46,625 nt of DNA from a virus. Shown here in pieces: positions 3,659-46,625 of the stretch. Both the position numbers and the translations under genes were made by a program. The stretch covers positions 1-46,625 of IMG/VR virus record IMGVR_UViG_3300047462_000143. The stretch is one strand, 5' to 3'. The notes beneath the pieces were generated by a model that saw only the letters and a program-made list of their open reading frames with translations, was not told where the DNA came from and did no database searches. The number at the start of each line of letters is the position of its first letter. Position 1 is the first letter of the stretch.

Positions 3659-3968
3659 ATGCTGCTTTCAGGAGAGCGCGCCCCTTAAGCTTCTTCTCGC
3701 GGGCACGCTCCAAAATTTGACTTAGGAAATAGCGGGGATTCGTAGCCCCGAACGCTGTTGACTTATCGAGTCCCCATTGCACAGCCTGGTCCCGCAGCGT
3801 CCGAGGCGTCACTTCCAGGATCGCCGCCGCGACCTCCGGCGTCAGCAACTCGAACCGGGCCACAATCGCATCCGCGATCCGGTCCACCAGGCGTTCGCTC
3901 GTCAGCAGCTCCTCGGCCGCCGCGGCCACGCCCGCGATCACCAGGTCCTCCGGTATCTCGATCTTCAT
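3657..3968 (-). CDS. Helix-turn-helix protein, 103 aa (possible excisionase or regulator)
   Basis: The segment LLTPEVAAAILEVTPRTLRD (about residues 41-60) is a good HTH, followed by QWGLDKSTAFGATNPRYF and a basic C-terminal helix ending KLKGRALLKAA. This is MerR/excisionase-like in layout: a DNA-binding HTH, a wing with an aromatic pair and a basic tail. It lies next to the RHH gene and about 1.2 kb from the integrase gene start. A role in excision or early gene control is an inference. Start ATG at 3968. Confidence 0.6.
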   Translation of the reverse strand: MKIEIPEDLVIAGVAAAAEELLTSERLVDRIADAIVARFELLTPEVAAAILEVTPRTLRDQAVQWGLDKSTAFGATNPRYFLSQILERAREKKLKGRALLKAA

Positions 3969-20602: not shown

Positions 20603-21625
20603 TCACACGGTCCAGTAGATACCCGTTGTCGTCGCGGCGTTCAGGTACGCGAGGAGCTGATTGTAGTCGTCGTTGATCGGATCGAGCAGGCTGGCAATGA
20701 GTCCGTCGGCCACGCCGCCCGCAAGCCCGGTCACGAGCGAGAGATTCGAAGGCGGCGTATAAGAGCCGCCGTTCGAGACCTGGTGCGCCACGTTCCAGAA
20801 AAGATTGTGCTTCGGATAAATCTGGAAGGTGGCGTCCGGGGGATCGTCCTCGTTGGCGTTGGGAGGCGACAGCGCGTAAACGGTGCCGATGAGGATATCA
20901 TCGCTGTTCGGCTGCACGTAGGCGCCGCTGAGGATGTCCGAGGGATCGGGCGGCGGATTGGGAACGTACTTCGTTTCCGGCAATATCTGGTTCTGCGGGT
21001 TGTTCGCGAAGTAAGCGTTTTCGAAAGTGGTATCGAAAGTGATTGTCCCGTCGGGCTCGACCGTCGGCGACGTGGACGAGCTGATGACCGGCGTCGAAAG
21101 AATTACGTCGCCGGCCCAGAGCTGGCGGGTGCGCGTAGGATCGGGGAGCGTCAGCTTCGCGCCGGTACCAGGATCGGGCGGCACGACGCCGAGGCTCGCG
21201 AAATACGACGGGTAGCCCTCGCCGGGCGTGTTGATGAGATCGCCGGCGTCGTCCGTGGTAAGACCTCCCTGGATCAGGCTGCGCCAGGCGAGCGCAAATT
21301 CCGGCCGTACCGGATCGGTAAGCGGTACCCACGTCAGCACGGGCTTTCCTCCGGCAGCCGGCGCTCGCAATGTCTGGATTACGCAATCCGTCCCATTCAC
21401 GAATCCAGGCTCGACCCCGCACATCCATTGCTGGCTCCCAGGGTCCCAGCGCGGCAGGAGCTGAAAGGGATGGCGCCAGGAATAGGACGGCACGGCCGTA
21501 ACCATCCGCTCCCTCCCGCCATTCACGCGCCGCAGCTTGCAATTCTGTCCCTCGAGTGCGTAGCAGGTGCGCAGGTCGGCGACCAGCGCGTTCCAGGCGG
21601 CGGCGGGGATCATCGGGACTTTCAT
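20603..21625 (-). CDS. Tail tip/structural protein with WNAL module, 340 aa
   Basis: N-terminal block MIPAAAWNALVADLRTCYAL, then LRRVNGG, is shared with the 21648-22286 protein (ITPQKWNALKAAVAELRLRA and LRRITG). This marks a common attachment module. The rest is a beta-rich body. Start ATG at 21625, preceded by CCCCTCTACTTCC; a similar CCCTCTACTTC lies before the scaffold start at 33007. Confidence 0.6.
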   Translation of the reverse strand: MKVPMIPAAAWNALVADLRTCYALEGQNCKLRRVNGGRERMVTAVPSYSWRHPFQLLPRWDPGSQQWMCGVEPGFVNGTDCVIQTLRAPAAGGKPVLTWVPLTDPVRPEFALAWRSLIQGGLTTDDAGDLINTPGEGYPSYFASLGVVPPDPGTGAKLTLPDPTRTRQLWAGDVILSTPVISSSTSPTVEPDGTITFDTTFENAYFANNPQNQILPETKYVPNPPPDPSDILSGAYVQPNSDDILIGTVYALSPPNANEDDPPDATFQIYPKHNLFWNVAHQVSNGGSYTPPSNLSLVTGLAGGVADGLIASLLDPINDDYNQLLAYLNAATTTGIYWTV

Positions 21626-21632
21626 GGAAGTA

Positions 21633-21649
21633 GAGGGGAGATTCCCCTC
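21633..21649. repeat. Iteron-like palindrome, single copy
   Basis: GAGGGGAGATTCCCCTC, one mismatch from the 17-bp iteron repeated in the replication gene at 45122-45246. It starts at the stop codon of the 212-aa gene and lies 8 bases before the next ATG. Six-bp GAGGGG/CCCCTC stem with a short loop. Could be a stray binding site, a hairpin between tail genes or a chance match. Confidence 0.5.
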
Positions 21650-38970: not shown

Positions 38971-39537
38971 CTATTCGAACCCGGGCAGATCGGCCTGTTT
39001 GCCCTGCCGAATGGCCCGTGCCTGCTCTTCGTAGGGATCGTCCAGGGCGGCCTTGTTCTCCAGATGGCTCCCGTGTTGCCAGAAGTGCCGCCACGCCCGT
39101 TTTGCGGCCCTCCCGCGCACGGTATGACGGTCCAGGGCGAAGTCGGGGATCGGGCGCGGATCGCGCCGGCCCTCGTACATCACCACCAGCGCATGGTCCA
39201 CCATCCGGCTCTTCCTGGAAGCCGCGAGGAAGAGAACCGCGTGGACCAGGAACAATCGCTCCGGGGCGTGCAGTGTGTCCTTCTTCCTACGCACGTCCAG
39301 CCAGCTCTGGTAAAGCGCCTGGATCGTCGCCGGCGCGAGCGGCTCTCCCAGCCCCACGTCCTCGCTCGCGATGATTCTGAGGCGTTTGAAGACGTATTCC
39401 CCGTACCCGGCCAGGTCGAGTTCCGTTGCCCAATAGAGCGCATCATCGGCGAGGCCGCGGCGGATGCATTTCTGCATCGCGCTCGCGACCTCCCCGCAGA
39501 TGTAGCCGCCGGGCGTGACCACCTGTGCGAACGTCAC
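38971..39537 (-). CDS. RarA/MgsA C-terminal domain protein, 188 aa
   Basis: Matches the C-terminal part of RarA (MgsA): ADDALYWATELDLAGYGEYV, then RIIASEDVGLG and LFLVHAVLFLAASRKSRMVD. Normal RarA carries this behind an AAA+ ATPase; here the ATPase is the next gene upstream (39534-40175), with ATGA overlap. A split clamp-loader-related machine for phage replication or repair is likely. Confidence 0.75.
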   Translation of the reverse strand: MTFAQVVTPGGYICGEVASAMQKCIRRGLADDALYWATELDLAGYGEYVFKRLRIIASEDVGLGEPLAPATIQALYQSWLDVRRKKDTLHAPERLFLVHAVLFLAASRKSRMVDHALVVMYEGRRDPRPIPDFALDRHTVRGRAAKRAWRHFWQHGSHLENKAALDDPYEEQARAIRQGKQADLPGFE

Positions 39538-40175
39538 GCGGCGACCTCCGTCTTTCGCACGGCCGCCGCGGCGGCGAACGCCTCAGCGTCCTCGATGCAC
39601 GCCCGCATGTTCACCCCTTCCGACGGGAGGCACCCGTCCGGGACCGCGCCCTGGGCGATGGCGAGGGAGGCACCGGCGGGAATCCGGAACTGCGTCCGAA
39701 GATACCGCCGCGCCTCCTCGATCGAAGGAGCGTCCACCCGGAAGGTTTTGAATCGGGTCTCCAGCCGCCCTTTCGATTCCGCCCTCAGCCTGCCGTAATT
39801 GTTCGTGCTGGCGAGGATGGCAAGCCCGTCGGGCATATAATCGAGGTAACTGAGCAGCTCCGCGCGGGCGCTGGAACTCGCCTCGTCCAATTCGTCAATC
39901 CTCTTCACCGTCCAGGACGAGAAGAGATTGCCGTAGCCGGCCCGCTGGCGCCATTCCCTGACCAGGTCAATCCCGAGGGACTGGCCATTCACCCGCTCGA
40001 CCGCGAACGGCGAGCCTGTGATTTCGGCCGCCAGCAGATCGAGCAGGTGGGACTTGCCGACGCCCGGATCGCCATGCGTGAGGATGGCCACGCTCCGGTG
40101 CCTCGAGGCGAGCACCCTGGCCGTCTCCAGGACGGAGACGGCAGGGCCAATGAGTGGGAGATCGAGGCGGATCAT
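39534..40175 (-). CDS. AAA+ ATPase, RarA/clamp-loader-like, 213 aa
   Basis: Walker A GDPGVGKS (residues about 34-41), Walker B region VKRIDELDE, sensor 1 ILASTNN, and LETRFKTF as a possible Arg-finger or box VII region. Lacks the RarA C-terminal domain, which is the next gene. ATG at 40175 overlaps the stop of a SymE-like frame. The pair probably forms one machine. Confidence 0.8.
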   Translation of the reverse strand: MIRLDLPLIGPAVSVLETARVLASRHRSVAILTHGDPGVGKSHLLDLLAAEITGSPFAVERVNGQSLGIDLVREWRQRAGYGNLFSSWTVKRIDELDEASSSARAELLSYLDYMPDGLAILASTNNYGRLRAESKGRLETRFKTFRVDAPSIEEARRYLRTQFRIPAGASLAIAQGAVPDGCLPSEGVNMRACIEDAEAFAAAAAVRKTEVAA

Positions 40176-40623
40176 ATCGGGCGGATGGTAATGCTGCCGG
40201 CCTCGACGTGGACCTGGACCTTGCAGCCCGTAGGGAAACCGGCTTCGGAAAGCCAGCGGCCCGAAAGGCGAAGGAACGGAACCACGGAGAAGCTCCAACG
40301 GTTGCGCCGGAAGAGCCCGGCTTCAATTTTGCAGTGTTTGACTGCAATTTGGGCACTACTTGGTCCCTAATTAGTACCATCGCGGCGAAGGCGAGTTCCT
40401 CCGGGCCGGCGAACACTTCCCGGGCGACCGCATTCCAGGGAGCGACCGATTTGCTGCGGTCGCCGAACCTGTAACGGTAATCGCCCGTCTTCTTGCACAC
40501 GTAGACTTCACCAGATGCCCAATCCTCGAAGGCCGGCGTAAGCTCCTCGAGGCGGCGCGCTGCGCGTACGAGTTTGTTGACTTTGATGAATCCGAGACTG
40601 CGGATTTTAGTGACTGGTTTCAT
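39967..40623 (-). CDS. Hypothetical protein, C-terminus uncertain (possible frameshift)
   Basis: Starts MKPVTKIRSLGFIKVNKLVR and runs well to LIRDQVV near residue 90. Beyond about 40366 the zero frame becomes nonsense and overlaps the AAA+ gene by 209 bases, while the -1 frame gives the SymE-like domain. I therefore suspect that the real product ends or shifts between 40366 and 40300. ATG at 40623 overlaps the stop of the 44-aa ORF; leader hairpin copy 2 lies 22 nt upstream. Confidence 0.5.
   Translation of the reverse strand: MKPVTKIRSLGFIKVNKLVRAARRLEELTPAFEDWASGEVYVCKKTGDYRYRFGDRSKSVAPWNAVAREVFAGPEELAFAAMVLIRDQVVPKLQSNTAKLKPGSSGATVGASPWFRSFAFRAAGFPKPVSLRAARSRSTSRPAALPSARYDPPRSPTHWPCRLRPGDGQGARLEAPERGHPHAWRSGRRQVPPARSAGGRNHRLAVRGRAGEWPVPRD
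40172..40366 (-). CDS. SymE-like frame without clear start
   Basis: Open from 40366 to TGA at 40172, whose ATGA overlap with the AAA+ gene supports translation. Encodes a SymE/AbrB-like domain: VVPFLRLSGRWLSEAGFPTG, then KVQVHVEAGSITI. No ATG, GTG or TTG precedes the domain in this frame. Either a rare start (ATT) is used, or it is joined by a -1 shift to the upstream gene starting at 40623. A sequencing error is also possible. Confidence 0.6.
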   Translation of the reverse strand, partial: GPSSAQIAVKHCKIEAGLFRRNRWSFSVVPFLRLSGRWLSEAGFPTGCKVQVHVEAGSITIRPI

Positions 40624-41642: not shown

Positions 41643-42356
41643 TTAGAAAGGAAGGTGCATCGTGATCTTTTGCGCCCCGGCATAATCACGCTTCCGCGTC
41701 CCGCTGAATCCGCCAGCGTGGAAGATATCGCCCCATTTCTTCCGGAGCAACTCGACGTCGCGCTTCTCTGTGATGGAAGTTCGGAAAGCGGCCTGCCCTC
41801 CCTTGCCGACGAAGGTTTCCTTTTGGCAGAAGGTGTACCTACAGTCTTTCACGCACATCCGGTGGGCAAAAGCATTCGCGGCCGCGATATCGAAATCATT
41901 CTTCGCCACGATCCTTTCGTCGAAGCGCAAACCATGACCGCGGCGGAATCCCATCGCGCACCCGTTGATATAGCCGGTCAACGCGATCGGCTTTAACCCG
42001 GTGAAGTACCGAAGGGCGCCATTGCTCGCCTCCCAGCCGAAATAGAACGCGCCCACGTCGCGCGCCAGGATGAACGTATTGAGGATGATCGCCTCGATGA
42101 GCCGGGGATCGCGGATCGTCGCCTCTTCGCCTCGTTCGACGAAACACCGCTGCACCGTCAGAATATCATCGTCCACGAAGACCACCGCCTCGTAATCGGA
42201 AAGCCGATCCAGGAGCCAGTTGAGCTTCGGCGTCAGGCCCTTAACGCTGTCGGGGTGGGTGATGAGCCGGTTTCCGCTGACCACGCGGCCGTAATCTCTC
42301 GATTGGCTTTGCGGCACGCACACCATCGCGCTTGGAATGAGGTCGTGCGTCGTCAT
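41643..42356 (-). CDS. GT-A type glycosyltransferase-like protein, 237 aa
   Basis: MTTHDLIPSAMVCVPQSQSR, then AVVFVDDDILTVQR with DDD at 62-64, GYINGCAMGFRRGHGLRFDE, and the end LLRKKWGDIFHAGG. This pattern fits phage glycosyltransferases, including some thought to sugar-coat DNA bases. The ParB-like gene overlaps its start. DNA modification is a possibility, not shown. Confidence 0.65.
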   Translation of the reverse strand: MTTHDLIPSAMVCVPQSQSRDYGRVVSGNRLITHPDSVKGLTPKLNWLLDRLSDYEAVVFVDDDILTVQRCFVERGEEATIRDPRLIEAIILNTFILARDVGAFYFGWEASNGALRYFTGLKPIALTGYINGCAMGFRRGHGLRFDERIVAKNDFDIAAANAFAHRMCVKDCRYTFCQKETFVGKGGQAAFRTSITEKRDVELLRKKWGDIFHAGGFSGTRKRDYAGAQKITMHLPF

Positions 42357-43086
42357 GGTCGCCGCCCTGGACATCGAGGGAATGACGATTTTGACGGATG
42401 GCCTCGAGGAACCGCTTGAACGGGATCGCGCGTCCGAGGCCGACGCCGGTCTTCTTGTAGCTGCGTTCGGTTTGGACGCCGCAGAGTGTCTGGAGGAAGA
42501 CGAAGTCCGATTCGTTCTCGGTGAAGACGAGCACATAGTCATAGCTTTCATGCAATTTGGCGGTGATGGGGAAGTCACCTTCCCGGGTGTCTGCGTCGGA
42601 GAGGAGCTTCTGCAATTCGTCCGACGAAAAAGCCGCGATGCTCAGGTCTTCCTCATCCATCTCCGAGAGCAACTTCGCCAGCTTGGCGTTATCCGTCAGC
42701 GCCTCTTCCGCCAGGCGGTTGTCCGCGAGCAGATCGCGCCGCTCCTCCGCGCGATCCTTGTAAGCCTGGTATTCGACCGGAATTTTCCAGCCGCGGCGTT
42801 TCGCCATGAGCCACGCGCCGTGCCCCCTGATAATGAAGCCGGAGAATTTGGACACCACGACCGGCTTCCTCCAGCCATTGCCGCGCCGCGTACCTTTGCC
42901 GGCGATGACGATCTCGTATTTCTCGAGCTGCTTCGGCGGATGGGAACGGTGCGCGTTGTCAGGATGCGGGGTCAGCTCCTCGGCATCGCAAATTCGGTCG
43001 AATTTGCAGTGCACGGGGATTCCGGAGATCTCGACCGGCTTTTTCCGGCCGGCCGCTAAATTTTCATGGGAACCTGTTTTTTTCAT
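42241..43086 (-). CDS. ParB/sulfiredoxin-like domain protein, 281 aa
   Basis: N-terminal ParB-like block: ELTPHPDNAHRSHPPKQLEK, then FIIRGHGAWLMAKRRGWKIP and AEERRDLLADNRLAEE. C-terminal region (YDYVLVFTENESDFVFLQTL) follows the acidic linker, like phage ParB-like proteins linked to DNA modification. ATG 43086 chosen; its 3' end overlaps the glycosyltransferase by 116 bases. Upstream gap contains an eight-base G run (43155-43162). Confidence 0.7.
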   Translation of the reverse strand: MKKTGSHENLAAGRKKPVEISGIPVHCKFDRICDAEELTPHPDNAHRSHPPKQLEKYEIVIAGKGTRRGNGWRKPVVVSKFSGFIIRGHGAWLMAKRRGWKIPVEYQAYKDRAEERRDLLADNRLAEEALTDNAKLAKLLSEMDEEDLSIAAFSSDELQKLLSDADTREGDFPITAKLHESYDYVLVFTENESDFVFLQTLCGVQTERSYKKTGVGLGRAIPFKRFLEAIRQNRHSLDVQGGDHDDARPHSKRDGVRAAKPIERLRPRGQRKPAHHPPRQR

Positions 43087-43209
43087 CACGCATACAAAAA
43101 CACTGAGAGTCGCCAAGACCCCTCCCTGGGGGCCTTGCCGTAAGAGATTCCTTAGGGGGGGGTGGCTGACCATAAAAACCATAATGGGGAAGTGTTTTTG
43201 AGGGTTTGG
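43087..43209. other. Intergenic region with G/C-runs
   Basis: Gap of 123 bases. Plus strand has GGGGGGGG near 43155-43162 and CCCCTCCCTGGGGG near 43120-43134 (a short hairpin is possible). AAAAACACTGAGAG lies near the ParB start. No clear promoter. The largest gap in the right-end leftward operon, so promoter or attenuation control is possible. Confidence 0.4.
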
Positions 43210-43746
43210 TCAGAGCTTTTCGTACAGCTCCACCCAAGGCGCTATACGCTGCTTGAGGATGGCCCTGTCCTGCGCCGGCCACTGCTCGACAGGACATTTC
43301 GAGAGCCGCGCATTCAGCTGATTGTGAGCCTGCACCAGGTGCGTGATGAATGATGCAGCGCCAGAGCTTTTGCTTTCGCCCGCGCCTGCTTCGAGTTCAG
43401 GTAACAACCCCGCAAGTCTATAAGCTTGCGTAACGCTATTAGCGTTCTCCAGGTCAGCACCTTTCTTATCCGCGAACTCTGCCAGTTTCATCCATCGCGC
43501 CGCTGTTGACTTAGGCAATTCAGGCAACTCTAGTTCCAGCCACTCGTACCAGTCGCCATGCTTCAACTCGCCTTTCTTAACCTTCAACCACGATCCAATA
43601 TCAACGATCTTCTTTAATGCCAACTGCACCATCGCCATCGTTTGATCCACATAGCCCAGCGCTTCTTTGATCCGTTCCCTCCAACTGGCCAGGTCATCCG
43701 CCGGCGTCATCACCTGGTCAATTGCGACTGCCTTAGCAACTGCCAT
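43210..43746 (-). CDS. DUF3102 protein, 178 aa
   Basis: Core: IGSWLKVKKGELKHGDWYEW, then LPELPKSTAARWMKLAEFAD and NANSVTQAYRLAGLLPE. This is typical DUF3102, found in phages and plasmids; function not established. ATG 43746 with GGGAGG seven bases upstream. Stop 123 bases before the ParB-like start. Confidence 0.8.
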   Translation of the reverse strand: MAVAKAVAIDQVMTPADDLASWRERIKEALGYVDQTMAMVQLALKKIVDIGSWLKVKKGELKHGDWYEWLELELPELPKSTAARWMKLAEFADKKGADLENANSVTQAYRLAGLLPELEAGAGESKSSGAASFITHLVQAHNQLNARLSKCPVEQWPAQDRAILKQRIAPWVELYEKL

Positions 43747-44362
43747 ATATCCTCCCAAGCATTCCGGTAAACGCCCACGGCTCGCGTGCTGGCCTGTTTC
43801 TCTTTCCACGTTGCCGATCCGCATACACTTTCCGCGTCCGCTCCTTTTTCATCCCTCGCGATGGCGGCAATCCCAAAGCCTCGCAAATTCTTATACACCG
43901 CTTGCTCACAGCCGCTTTGCCAACACCTTCGTCGCGCGCGATCTCCGTTTGGCTATCCGTCGTCAGCTCGAGCACAAACGCCATGCATCGCGCCTGCAGG
44001 CGGCAGTTATCCGCAGTCATCAATTCCGCCAAAAGCCGCGAAGTCATTTCCAGGTCCGCGCCACTCGGTTCAGCTCCGTCAAACAAATCCCTCAGCCGAT
44101 CCTCCTTCTTCGCCTCCTCGATCACGTCGACCACGATCTTTCCCAACATTCGCGTGATCAAATCCGGCGGCGCTCCGTGTTGCATCATCTGCGCCACTGC
44201 ATTATTCGACACTCGCGCCACCAGCTCCGTTGCCACATCGAGTGGCCCGTCGATATTCATTTCTGGCCAATGACTGGCTTCAGGACGGTCCGCGGCGTCG
44301 CGGAATGCTGGTGTGGCTAGGGTTGGCATCCGCTCCACAGATGCGCCGTTTGCAATCGTCAC
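43733..44362 (-). CDS. HTH protein, 209 aa
   Basis: GTG 44362 (GTGA overlap). Helical, with an HTH SQTEIARDEGVGKAAVSKRC near residues 145-165 and a basic C-terminal tail (KKERTRKVYADRQRGKRNRP). Probably a transcription regulator or small terminase-like DNA-binding protein of the replication operon. Confidence 0.65.
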   Translation of the reverse strand: MTIANGASVERMPTLATPAFRDAADRPEASHWPEMNIDGPLDVATELVARVSNNAVAQMMQHGAPPDLITRMLGKIVVDVIEEAKKEDRLRDLFDGAEPSGADLEMTSRLLAELMTADNCRLQARCMAFVLELTTDSQTEIARDEGVGKAAVSKRCIRICEALGLPPSRGMKKERTRKVYADRQRGKRNRPAREPWAFTGMLGRIYGSC

Positions 44363-44694
44363 GCAACGCATCCGCCGTGCGACTTGTCCCCAACTTGTCC
44401 ACAACCCACGGATTTTTGGCCGCTATTGCTTCCAACGCGGAAAAACGCATCCGCCACGCCATTCGACCTCACCCTCACAATCCTACCTTTTGGCCCGCGA
44501 TCCACATCACATTGCGGCATCCACTTGCTCCTCATCCGGCGCCGCATGGTCCGCGTCGTTATCCCGAGCCGCTCGCACAATTCCGCCGGCGTCTCCCACT
44601 TGCCGGGCATTTCCACCAAATAGCCGCGCTTGACCAGGTACATTACTGCCCAGGTCGTTGAATCTTCGCCGCTGGCTAGGGGACACCGGAACAT
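44359..44694 (-). CDS. HTH protein, 111 aa
   Basis: ETPAELCERLGITTRTMRRR (about residues 34-53) is a clear HTH, followed by basic residues RSKWMPQCDVDRGPKGRIVR. ATG 44694 used; MYLVKRGYLV at 44643 is an alternative. Another frame from ATG 44731 overlaps the initiator stop (ATGA) but shows no domain. Regulator candidate. Confidence 0.6.
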   Translation of the reverse strand: MFRCPLASGEDSTTWAVMYLVKRGYLVEMPGKWETPAELCERLGITTRTMRRRMRSKWMPQCDVDRGPKGRIVRVRSNGVADAFFRVGSNSGQKSVGCGQVGDKSHGGCVA

Positions 44695-44727: not shown

Positions 44728-45804
44728 TCATAGCGCCAGAAAGCAGCGCATCACCCTTCCCAGGTCACGAGCCATCGATTGTGCCTTCACGAACACCCTT
44801 CCCAGCGGTGACGTAATCTTCTTTCCGAGCAACTTCTCCTCCTTCACTTCACCCACCGCTTCCCTGATCTGGAGCGGAAAATCGCGAATCCTGGCAACCC
44901 AGGTGCGACGGCAGGTTTCGTCCCTCAATTCCCCCTTCACGTCCAGTTCCTGGACCTCCGAGAAAATCCAGTTTTTCTCGCCATCCCGGAACTGGCGGCC
45001 GCAGGCCGCGCCTTTTCCCTGAGCCACAGCTCCCGATTCGCTCGAATCGAACGAATCGCCGATCTGTCGATCTGGCGAATCGCCGGGCGCGCACGCGGGC
45101 ACGCGGTTATCTACCGGCCGTGAGGGGAGTTTCCCCTCCAGGTCCGTTTTTAGAGGGGAGTTTCCCCTCCGGCTGAGGGGAGTTTCCCCTCCGGTCGAGG
45201 GGAGTTTCCCCTCCGGATTCCGGTCGTCGGTGGGGAATCTCCCCTCGACCGTCTCTGTCGCACCGCGACGTCTGAACCCTGCGGCAACCGCATTGGAAAT
45301 GGCAAGATCGGTTTCAGCAGCCACTTCGCCCATGGCCGCATCGAATCCGAACCCGCGCGCCTGGCAGATCGAACGCTCGATCCCAGGGATTTCCGGCCGA
45401 TGCACTCGCATTTCATGAGCCTGCTCGATATCCTCCATCGCCGCGCGGCCCTCCAGCGCGCGGCCGGCCGCTGCCAGCCTCGCCGCGCGCAACTCGATCC
45501 AAAGCCAGCCATCGTCCCGTTCCTCAATCGTCACCACCTGGAAACTCTCCAGCCGGCGCAACGCCAGCGCACAATCACTCTTGTCCATCGAGAGCGCTCG
45601 CGCCAGCGCCAGCCGATTCCGCACCCAAATTCCCAACCGTCCAGCGTCGAAGGTAAGTTCATTGAGCAGCGCCAGAACGCGCCGCATCTGATCGCTTACC
45701 CTTTCATGCTTGAAACCGCTGCCGACTTCCATTTCCAGGAATGCAGTCACCATCAGCGCGCGCCGCACGTCGCGGGCAATTGTGGGGAGATCGTACTTAC
45801 TCAT
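44728..45804 (-). CDS. Replication initiator-like protein with internal iterons, 358 aa
   Basis: N-terminal winged-helix region: RRVLALLNELTFDAGRLGIW, then LALARALSMDKSDCALALRR and QVVTIEERDDGWLWIELR. Residues about 186-228 are encoded by the GAGGGGAGTTTCCCCTC repeats (read as EGKLPS, GGETPL, RGNSPL). C-terminal domain begins EKNWIFSEVQEL and would bind the helicase or primase. Arrangement parallels lambda O, which carries its own origin. Start ATG 45804. Confidence 0.75.
   Translation of the reverse strand: MSKYDLPTIARDVRRALMVTAFLEMEVGSGFKHERVSDQMRRVLALLNELTFDAGRLGIWVRNRLALARALSMDKSDCALALRRLESFQVVTIEERDDGWLWIELRAARLAAAGRALEGRAAMEDIEQAHEMRVHRPEIPGIERSICQARGFGFDAAMGEVAAETDLAISNAVAAGFRRRGATETVEGRFPTDDRNPEGKLPSTGGETPLSRRGNSPLKTDLEGKLPSRPVDNRVPACAPGDSPDRQIGDSFDSSESGAVAQGKGAACGRQFRDGEKNWIFSEVQELDVKGELRDETCRRTWVARIRDFPLQIREAVGEVKEEKLLGKKITSPLGRVFVKAQSMARDLGRVMRCFLAL
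45122..45246. repeat. Iterons inside replication gene, candidate origin
   Basis: GAGGGGAGTTTCCCCTC at 45122-45138, 45153-45169, 45175-45191 and 45197-45213 is perfect in all four. A fifth, shorter form is at 45232-45246. Spacing 31, 22, 22 and 35 bases. Inverted symmetry GAGGGG/CCCCTC. Likely binding sites of the encoded initiator. No obvious AT-rich tract beside them. Confidence 0.8.
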
Positions 45805-46136
45805 AAATCGAACTCCTTTCGTTCCACCGCTTGGCGCCGGTCGAAGAACTGCTCTACCAGTTCTATCAACAACGGGTCGCGCCGCATGCTCAACTTTTTG
45901 CGGAGCTTCTGGAGGGCTTTATGTTCAATGACCCATATCTTCTGCCAGCTACATCCGCACCACGCCGCGATCTCGCGATAAGTGAGTGGCACACCTGGCT
46001 TCGCATGGTGCATCGCGAGCGCAAGCCCGAGATCAATGCGCTCATCGATCTGCTGTTGCGTCAGGCCCTGGAATTCAGGAGAGGTCGTCACCCATCGCCC
46101 GCTTACGTTCCATCCTTTTGCATTCCTCTTGCTCAC
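45801..46136 (-). CDS. Sigma-70 region-4-like HTH protein, 111 aa
   Basis: GLTQQQIDERIDLGLALAMH then LTYREIAAWCGCSWQKIWVI and EHKALQKLRKKL, a good match to the sigma-70 region 4 HTH. No region 2. GTG 46136 with GTGA overlap. Could be an anti-sigma or late activator, or function with the region 2 protein at 12594. Stop overlaps the initiator start. Confidence 0.75.
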   Translation of the reverse strand: MSKRNAKGWNVSGRWVTTSPEFQGLTQQQIDERIDLGLALAMHHAKPGVPLTYREIAAWCGCSWQKIWVIEHKALQKLRKKLSMRRDPLLIELVEQFFDRRQAVERKEFDL

Positions 46137-46491: not shown

Positions 46492-46625
46492 GGCGCGTGG
46501 CGCGTGGCGCGTGGCGCGTGGCGCGTGGCGCGTGGCGCGTGGCGCGTGGCGCGTGGCGCGTGGCGCGTGGCGCGTGGCGCGTGGCGCGTGGCGCGTGGCG
46601 CGTGGCGCGTGGCGCGTGGCGCGTG
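46492..46625. repeat. Heptamer tandem repeat (GGCGCGT)19 at right end
   Basis: Nineteen copies of GGCGCGT and one extra base up to the contig end. Different from the left tract. Lies directly upstream of the right-end operon. Confidence 0.95.

Follow-up and report, generated by a model that had tools for sequence, protein, structure and literature searches.

Palindromic repeats within a phage gene as candidate intragenic iterons of a putative replication initiator outside known families

The window analyzed here, a 46,625-nucleotide stretch of viral DNA, includes an array of palindromes at positions 45122–45246 which probably represents the intragenic iterons and origin of a phage replication initiator that lies outside known families and is encoded by the open reading frame (ORF) at 44728–45804 on the minus strand. 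Judged from position and from comparison with relatives, the palindromes most likely are landing sites for the putative initiator protein itself. The description in the initial annotation of a lambda-O-like origin is well supported by these comparisons as a mechanism, but not as family membership.

Within the array, the 17-bp palindrome GAGGGGA-gtt-TCCCCTC (GAGGGGAGTTTCCCCTC), in which 7-bp arms flank three bases (7-3-7), occurs four times in exact form, at 45122–45138, 45153–45169, 45175–45191 and 45197–45213, accompanied by a partial copy with a single arm mismatch (GTGGGGA-atc-TCCCCTC; 45230–45246). The inventory of four perfect copies and one partial copy within one gene is as the initial annotation described. 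The distances between successive starts are 31, 22, 22 and 33 bases. Read on the gene strand (minus), the copies commence at ORF nucleotides 559, 592, 614, 636 and 667, fall in frames 0, 0, 1, 2 and 0, and encode the peptides EGRFPT, EGKLPS, GGETPL, RGNSPL and EGKLPS, respectively. As the copies occupy all three reading frames, the DNA and not the peptide is the repeating entity, which bears out the earlier proposal that it is the DNA that is conserved. When every site was counted on both strands, 12 matches to the motif with three or fewer mismatches were detected, compared to a mean of 0.19 and a maximum of two in dinucleotide shuffles of the whole window. The occurrence of four identical palindromes in three frames of one linker is far beyond chance. 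An 11-3-11 palindrome (CGATTCGCTCG-aat-CGAACGAATCG) at 45034–45058 adjoins the array. The copies in the window are not followed by a T-run and no intrinsic terminator was called there, and the count of DnaA boxes was no higher than chance.

The ORF that houses the array looks to be a real gene. The start is preceded by the ribosome-binding site AAAGGAG and displays an ATGA overlap with the preceding gene (45801–46136, minus strand), whose product resembles sigma-70 region 4. The G+C content by codon position follows the same pattern before and after the array, as in other phage genes, which suggests that a single reading frame runs through the repeats. The array corresponds to codons 187–229 of 358 and is positioned between the N- and C-terminal parts of the protein, in the first half of a segment (codons 181–294; 44923–45264, minus strand) that is predicted to lack regular structure with a mean pLDDT of 39. 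A structure model of the full-length protein was unusable (pLDDT 39). The N-terminal 126 residues (45426–45804) are proposed to form an iteron-binding domain: a single-sequence model of this part showed the order of helices and strands of a winged helix, but at a low pLDDT of ~51. Many winged-helix chains were tied near Z 5–6 in comparisons with this weak model, mostly repressors tied with initiators that included 4pt7, whereas Foldseek gave no match at E ≤ 0.001, and the model is too weak for a fold family to be named. Apart from a weak DnaD_N match of the N-terminal part (E 0.2), which is no proof by itself, the 358-residue protein has no family match in Pfam or PHROGs. Searches of viral contigs revealed nothing related to the full protein or its C-terminal part, and searches of phages and plasmids with the protein gave no hit at useful E-values. 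The C-terminal part (44728–45000), which may recruit a helicase or helicase loader, can be aligned with a syntenic protein in the contig designated L027, and the initiator function is proposed from the gene slot, which is occupied by replication genes in relatives.

Directly after the ORF is a gene for a small helix-turn-helix protein (44359–44694), and the conserved gene that was used as a slot marker for finding relatives is located at 43733–44404 (minus strand), next to a conserved DUF3102 gene (43210–43824, minus strand). Further along are a gene for a ParB-like/methyltransferase-type protein (42241–43182) and, distant from the ORF, a gene for an AAA protein (39534–40298). The ParB-like/methyltransferase-type gene adjoins a gene (41643–42578) whose product matches a TET-associated glycosyltransferase (TAGT; E 9e-9), and DNA modification is a possible role for the pair. 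Elsewhere, 785–1612 specifies a DnaJ-domain protein (PHROG 9210) whose low-identity matches come from phages with widely differing hosts and extend to archaeal viruses. The ends of the window are perfect 7-base tandem repeats, (CGATCCG)18 at 1–127 and (GGCGCGT)19 at 46492–46625, and therefore assembly probably ended in these repeats, possibly leaving part of the phage genome uncovered.

The layout of the array recurs, with a different palindrome, in the nearest relative in this region. This contig, L027, was found via the marker gene, which is 71% identical to that of the window, and it possesses a syntenic ORF upstream of the marker in the same order, from which it is separated by three genes, one for ParB and two small ones. 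The ORF is open at the left end of the contig and its N-terminal part is off the contig. The C-terminal parts of the L027 and window proteins show 28% identity over 68 columns, a similarity that no shuffle of 2000 reached (Smith–Waterman z 6.3), though among all local ORFs it has an E-value of ~0.07. The DNA of the L027 linker carries GTTGGTT-NNN-AACCAAC seven times at 50–450, including one copy with a mismatch in an arm, and four of the seven are at 22–24 nucleotide spacing. The palindrome was not detected outside the linker in the 22-kb contig, nor in the window. The palindromes of L027 and the window have identical 7-3-7 geometry and unrelated sequences. The 50 bp of lowest stability in the L027 contig (99.99th percentile) fall in the interval from copy six to copy seven, in line with an unwinding element.

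Twelve further contigs were recovered when the marker gene was used for another search, and the slot was read in part of these. In the distant relatives that were read, the slot upstream of the marker is occupied by replication genes. PHROG entries annotated as replication initiation protein were matched in the slot at E ~1e-51 in L040 and L042 and at 2e-5 in L039, whereas L041 specifies a replisome organizer and a DnaC-like loader, L035–L037 specify proteins of primase/helicase (DnaB/primase) types, and L025 encodes a DnaB-like helicase. The linkers of the initiators also carry repeats: GTAACGCT-ccc-AGCGTTAC plus AGCGTTAC in L040 and L042, CCATTAGGTT and its inverse in L039, GCTTGAA repeats in L043, and GGTTAACC in L041. 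In all of the initiator genes of L039–L043, the 40 bp of lowest stability within the gene coincide with or flank the repeats. The C-terminal parts in L039, L040/L042 and L043 are 67–87% identical, whereas the N-terminal parts are unrelated and the repeats differ by type, a pattern that would follow from recognition of the repeat by the N-terminal domain and joint exchange of the two. Counts of repeats should be viewed with caution, as 34 of 87 ORFs in the window reach three copies of some 7-mer and six reach four. Short repeats in three copies thus are common in ordinary ORFs, and weight is placed on position, palindromes and adjoining unstable tracts rather than on counts.

A sixth copy of the palindrome that the initial annotation overlooked, GAGGGGA-gat-TCCCCTC (GAGGGGAGATTCCCCTC) with both arms perfect, is situated at 21633–21649, ~23.5 kb from the array. 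It is 7 nucleotides ahead of the ATG (21625) of a minus-strand gene (20603–21625) in the structural region. This lone copy counts against the reading of the array as an intragenic origin. A close relative, G001, has the identical 17 bases at the counterpart position, and ~46 bases of the DNA just before this copy differ from those of the window. G001 is 90–93% identical to the window over most of its length, but lacks an 8.3-kb region that includes the gene and array; the counterpart of the 21633 copy is its sole perfect copy of the motif. At the junction in G001 (L014 2377–2958, corresponding to window positions 3899 and 42174), a glycosyltransferase-like gene is fused with the beginning of another gene, which points either to loss of DNA in a prophage or to a join made during assembly; G001 is therefore no test of the origin proposal. 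In another relative, the circular G002, a region that may be the initiator slot (L019:6902–7672) revealed neither similarity to the 358-residue protein nor repeats. A different repeated gene-start element, GGGAGCGGG or its complement, occurs at 16 places in G002 (L019 187–5944), many as palindromes of the form GGGAGCGGG-N7-CCCGCTCCC that end a few bases before the start codons of small early genes. A scan of 2.9 million viral contigs did not reveal the tandem motif of the window, and one genome scan detected it in only three unrelated bacterial genomes. The exact motif occurs in other viral contigs as lone copies, several of which are hairpins followed by T-rich DNA. A betaproteobacterial contig (L011 1659–1749) carries CGAGGGGATACTCCCCTCG three times in tandem at 37-nucleotide spacing, unrelated to the phage array.

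The position of the lone copy immediately ahead of an ATG would suit operators bound by a transcription factor, either the ORF product or a neighboring regulator, that controls early genes and the gene at 21625 with no origin involved. Winged-helix domains are common in regulators, the structure matches of the N-terminal part were mostly repressors tied with initiators, and G002 has a different palindrome ahead of many gene starts. However, the array is ~560 nucleotides into the ORF, mid-gene and away from a promoter, the slot in relatives accommodates replication genes and not repressors, and all seven copies in L027 are confined to the linker. Control of transcription consequently is viewed as an unlikely role for the array.

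The sixth copy and the dispersed palindromes of G002 also would be compatible with repeats of a small mobile or REP-like kind that landed in a permissive linker and are functionless there, as linkers tolerate insertions and no frame is closed by the repeats. This explanation is distinctly improbable: the tandem motif is absent from the viral contigs and confined to the three bacterial genomes noted above, and arrays of other sequence recur at the same linker position in relatives, with no copies outside the gene in L027. The ParB protein with an HTH_ParB domain that is encoded shortly after the array gene in L027 raises the prospect that the array is a parS-like centromere recognized by a partition protein. 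No such ParB is specified by the window, in which only the ParB-like/methyltransferase-type protein is evident, and the initiators of L039–L043 carry linker repeats in the same slot, making a centromere highly improbable.

If the array is the binding site of the initiator, the N-terminal winged-helix-like domain would contact each 17-bp palindrome and, given half-sites that are one helical turn apart, would probably do so as a dimer, and copies that are two to three turns apart could assemble one nucleoprotein complex. The DNA nearby then would open, and the C-terminal domain might recruit a helicase or its loader. No AT-rich or unstable tract is present beside the array in the window: the nearest unstable candidates rank at the 93rd to 95th percentile and are at least 140 bases away, and the sole candidate on the lambda-like side is a mildly unstable stretch at 44931–44980 (93rd percentile of the window) that is doubtful as an unwinding element. 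The O protein of lambdoid phages is reported to bind without the AT-rich region, which is nonetheless crucial for unwinding (PMC7466680). Thus, the gap in the window bears more on origin activity than on binding.

A tentative but reasonable possibility is that the window and L027 typify an undescribed initiator family with 7-3-7 iterons in its own linker and that, across the wider phage group, cassettes of N-terminal domain and iterons are exchanged onto conserved C-terminal domains. If so, the exchange would furnish a natural set of matched initiator-origin specificities, and the exchange of N-terminal domain and repeat on shared C-terminal domains would allow the evolution of initiator specificity to be studied directly. 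The analysis also offers candidates for the origin and the initiator of phages that lack annotation of either, and suggests a homology-free rule for phage origins, namely repeated palindromes in the linker of a gene in the initiator slot.

That an initiator gene can contain the origin is textbook knowledge for lambda (PMC7466680) and has been reported for SPP1 (PMC6316719). As in lambda O and ori-lambda, the putative iterons in the window are located mid-gene in linker DNA of the early region (PMC7466680), and the units are similar palindromes of ~17–18 bp, with a spacing of 20–24 bp in lambda. The lambda iterons correspond to codons 117–145 of O, 20–24 nucleotides apart, and adjoin an AT-rich tract, whereas the array in the window is without one. 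The proposed plan of the window protein, with DNA-binding domain, iteron-carrying linker and C-terminal domain, is that of lambda O. The part of the lambda-O-like proposal that is supported is that of iterons in the gene of their own initiator, which draws on position, the L027 layout and the recognized initiators in the slot. Membership of the lambda O family does not follow, as Phage_rep_O (PF04492) had no match in the record at E ≤ 10, pairwise comparison of the N- or C-terminal part with lambda O gave no similarity, and the AT-rich tract is missing. The helicase-loader gene P is directly after O in lambda, and is replaced in the window by the small helix-turn-helix gene. The initial annotation regarded the repeat as unlike known iterons, which is correct for the whole sequence. 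Nevertheless, the half-site GAGGGGA resembles GAGGGA of lambda, albeit in opposite order (TCCCTC-5-GAGGGA in lambda and GAGGGGA-3-TCCCCTC in the window), a resemblance that may be due to chance given the G-rich sequence. The layout of SPP1 gp38 and oriL also places origin repeats within the gene for the origin-binding protein, with a second binding region elsewhere in the genome (PMC6316719). The second site in SPP1 is a full repeat origin with its own AT-rich region ~13 kb away, whereas the window has one lone copy ~23.5 kb away. Among the relatives, the proteins of PHROG 2509 and 9474 (L039, L040, L042) gave no profile match with the 358-residue protein, their N- and C-terminal parts are unalignable with its own, and their repeats adjoin an unstable tract in contrast to the array in the window. 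Nonetheless, these proteins occupy the same slot and, like the window protein, carry repeats in the linker between the N- and C-terminal parts.
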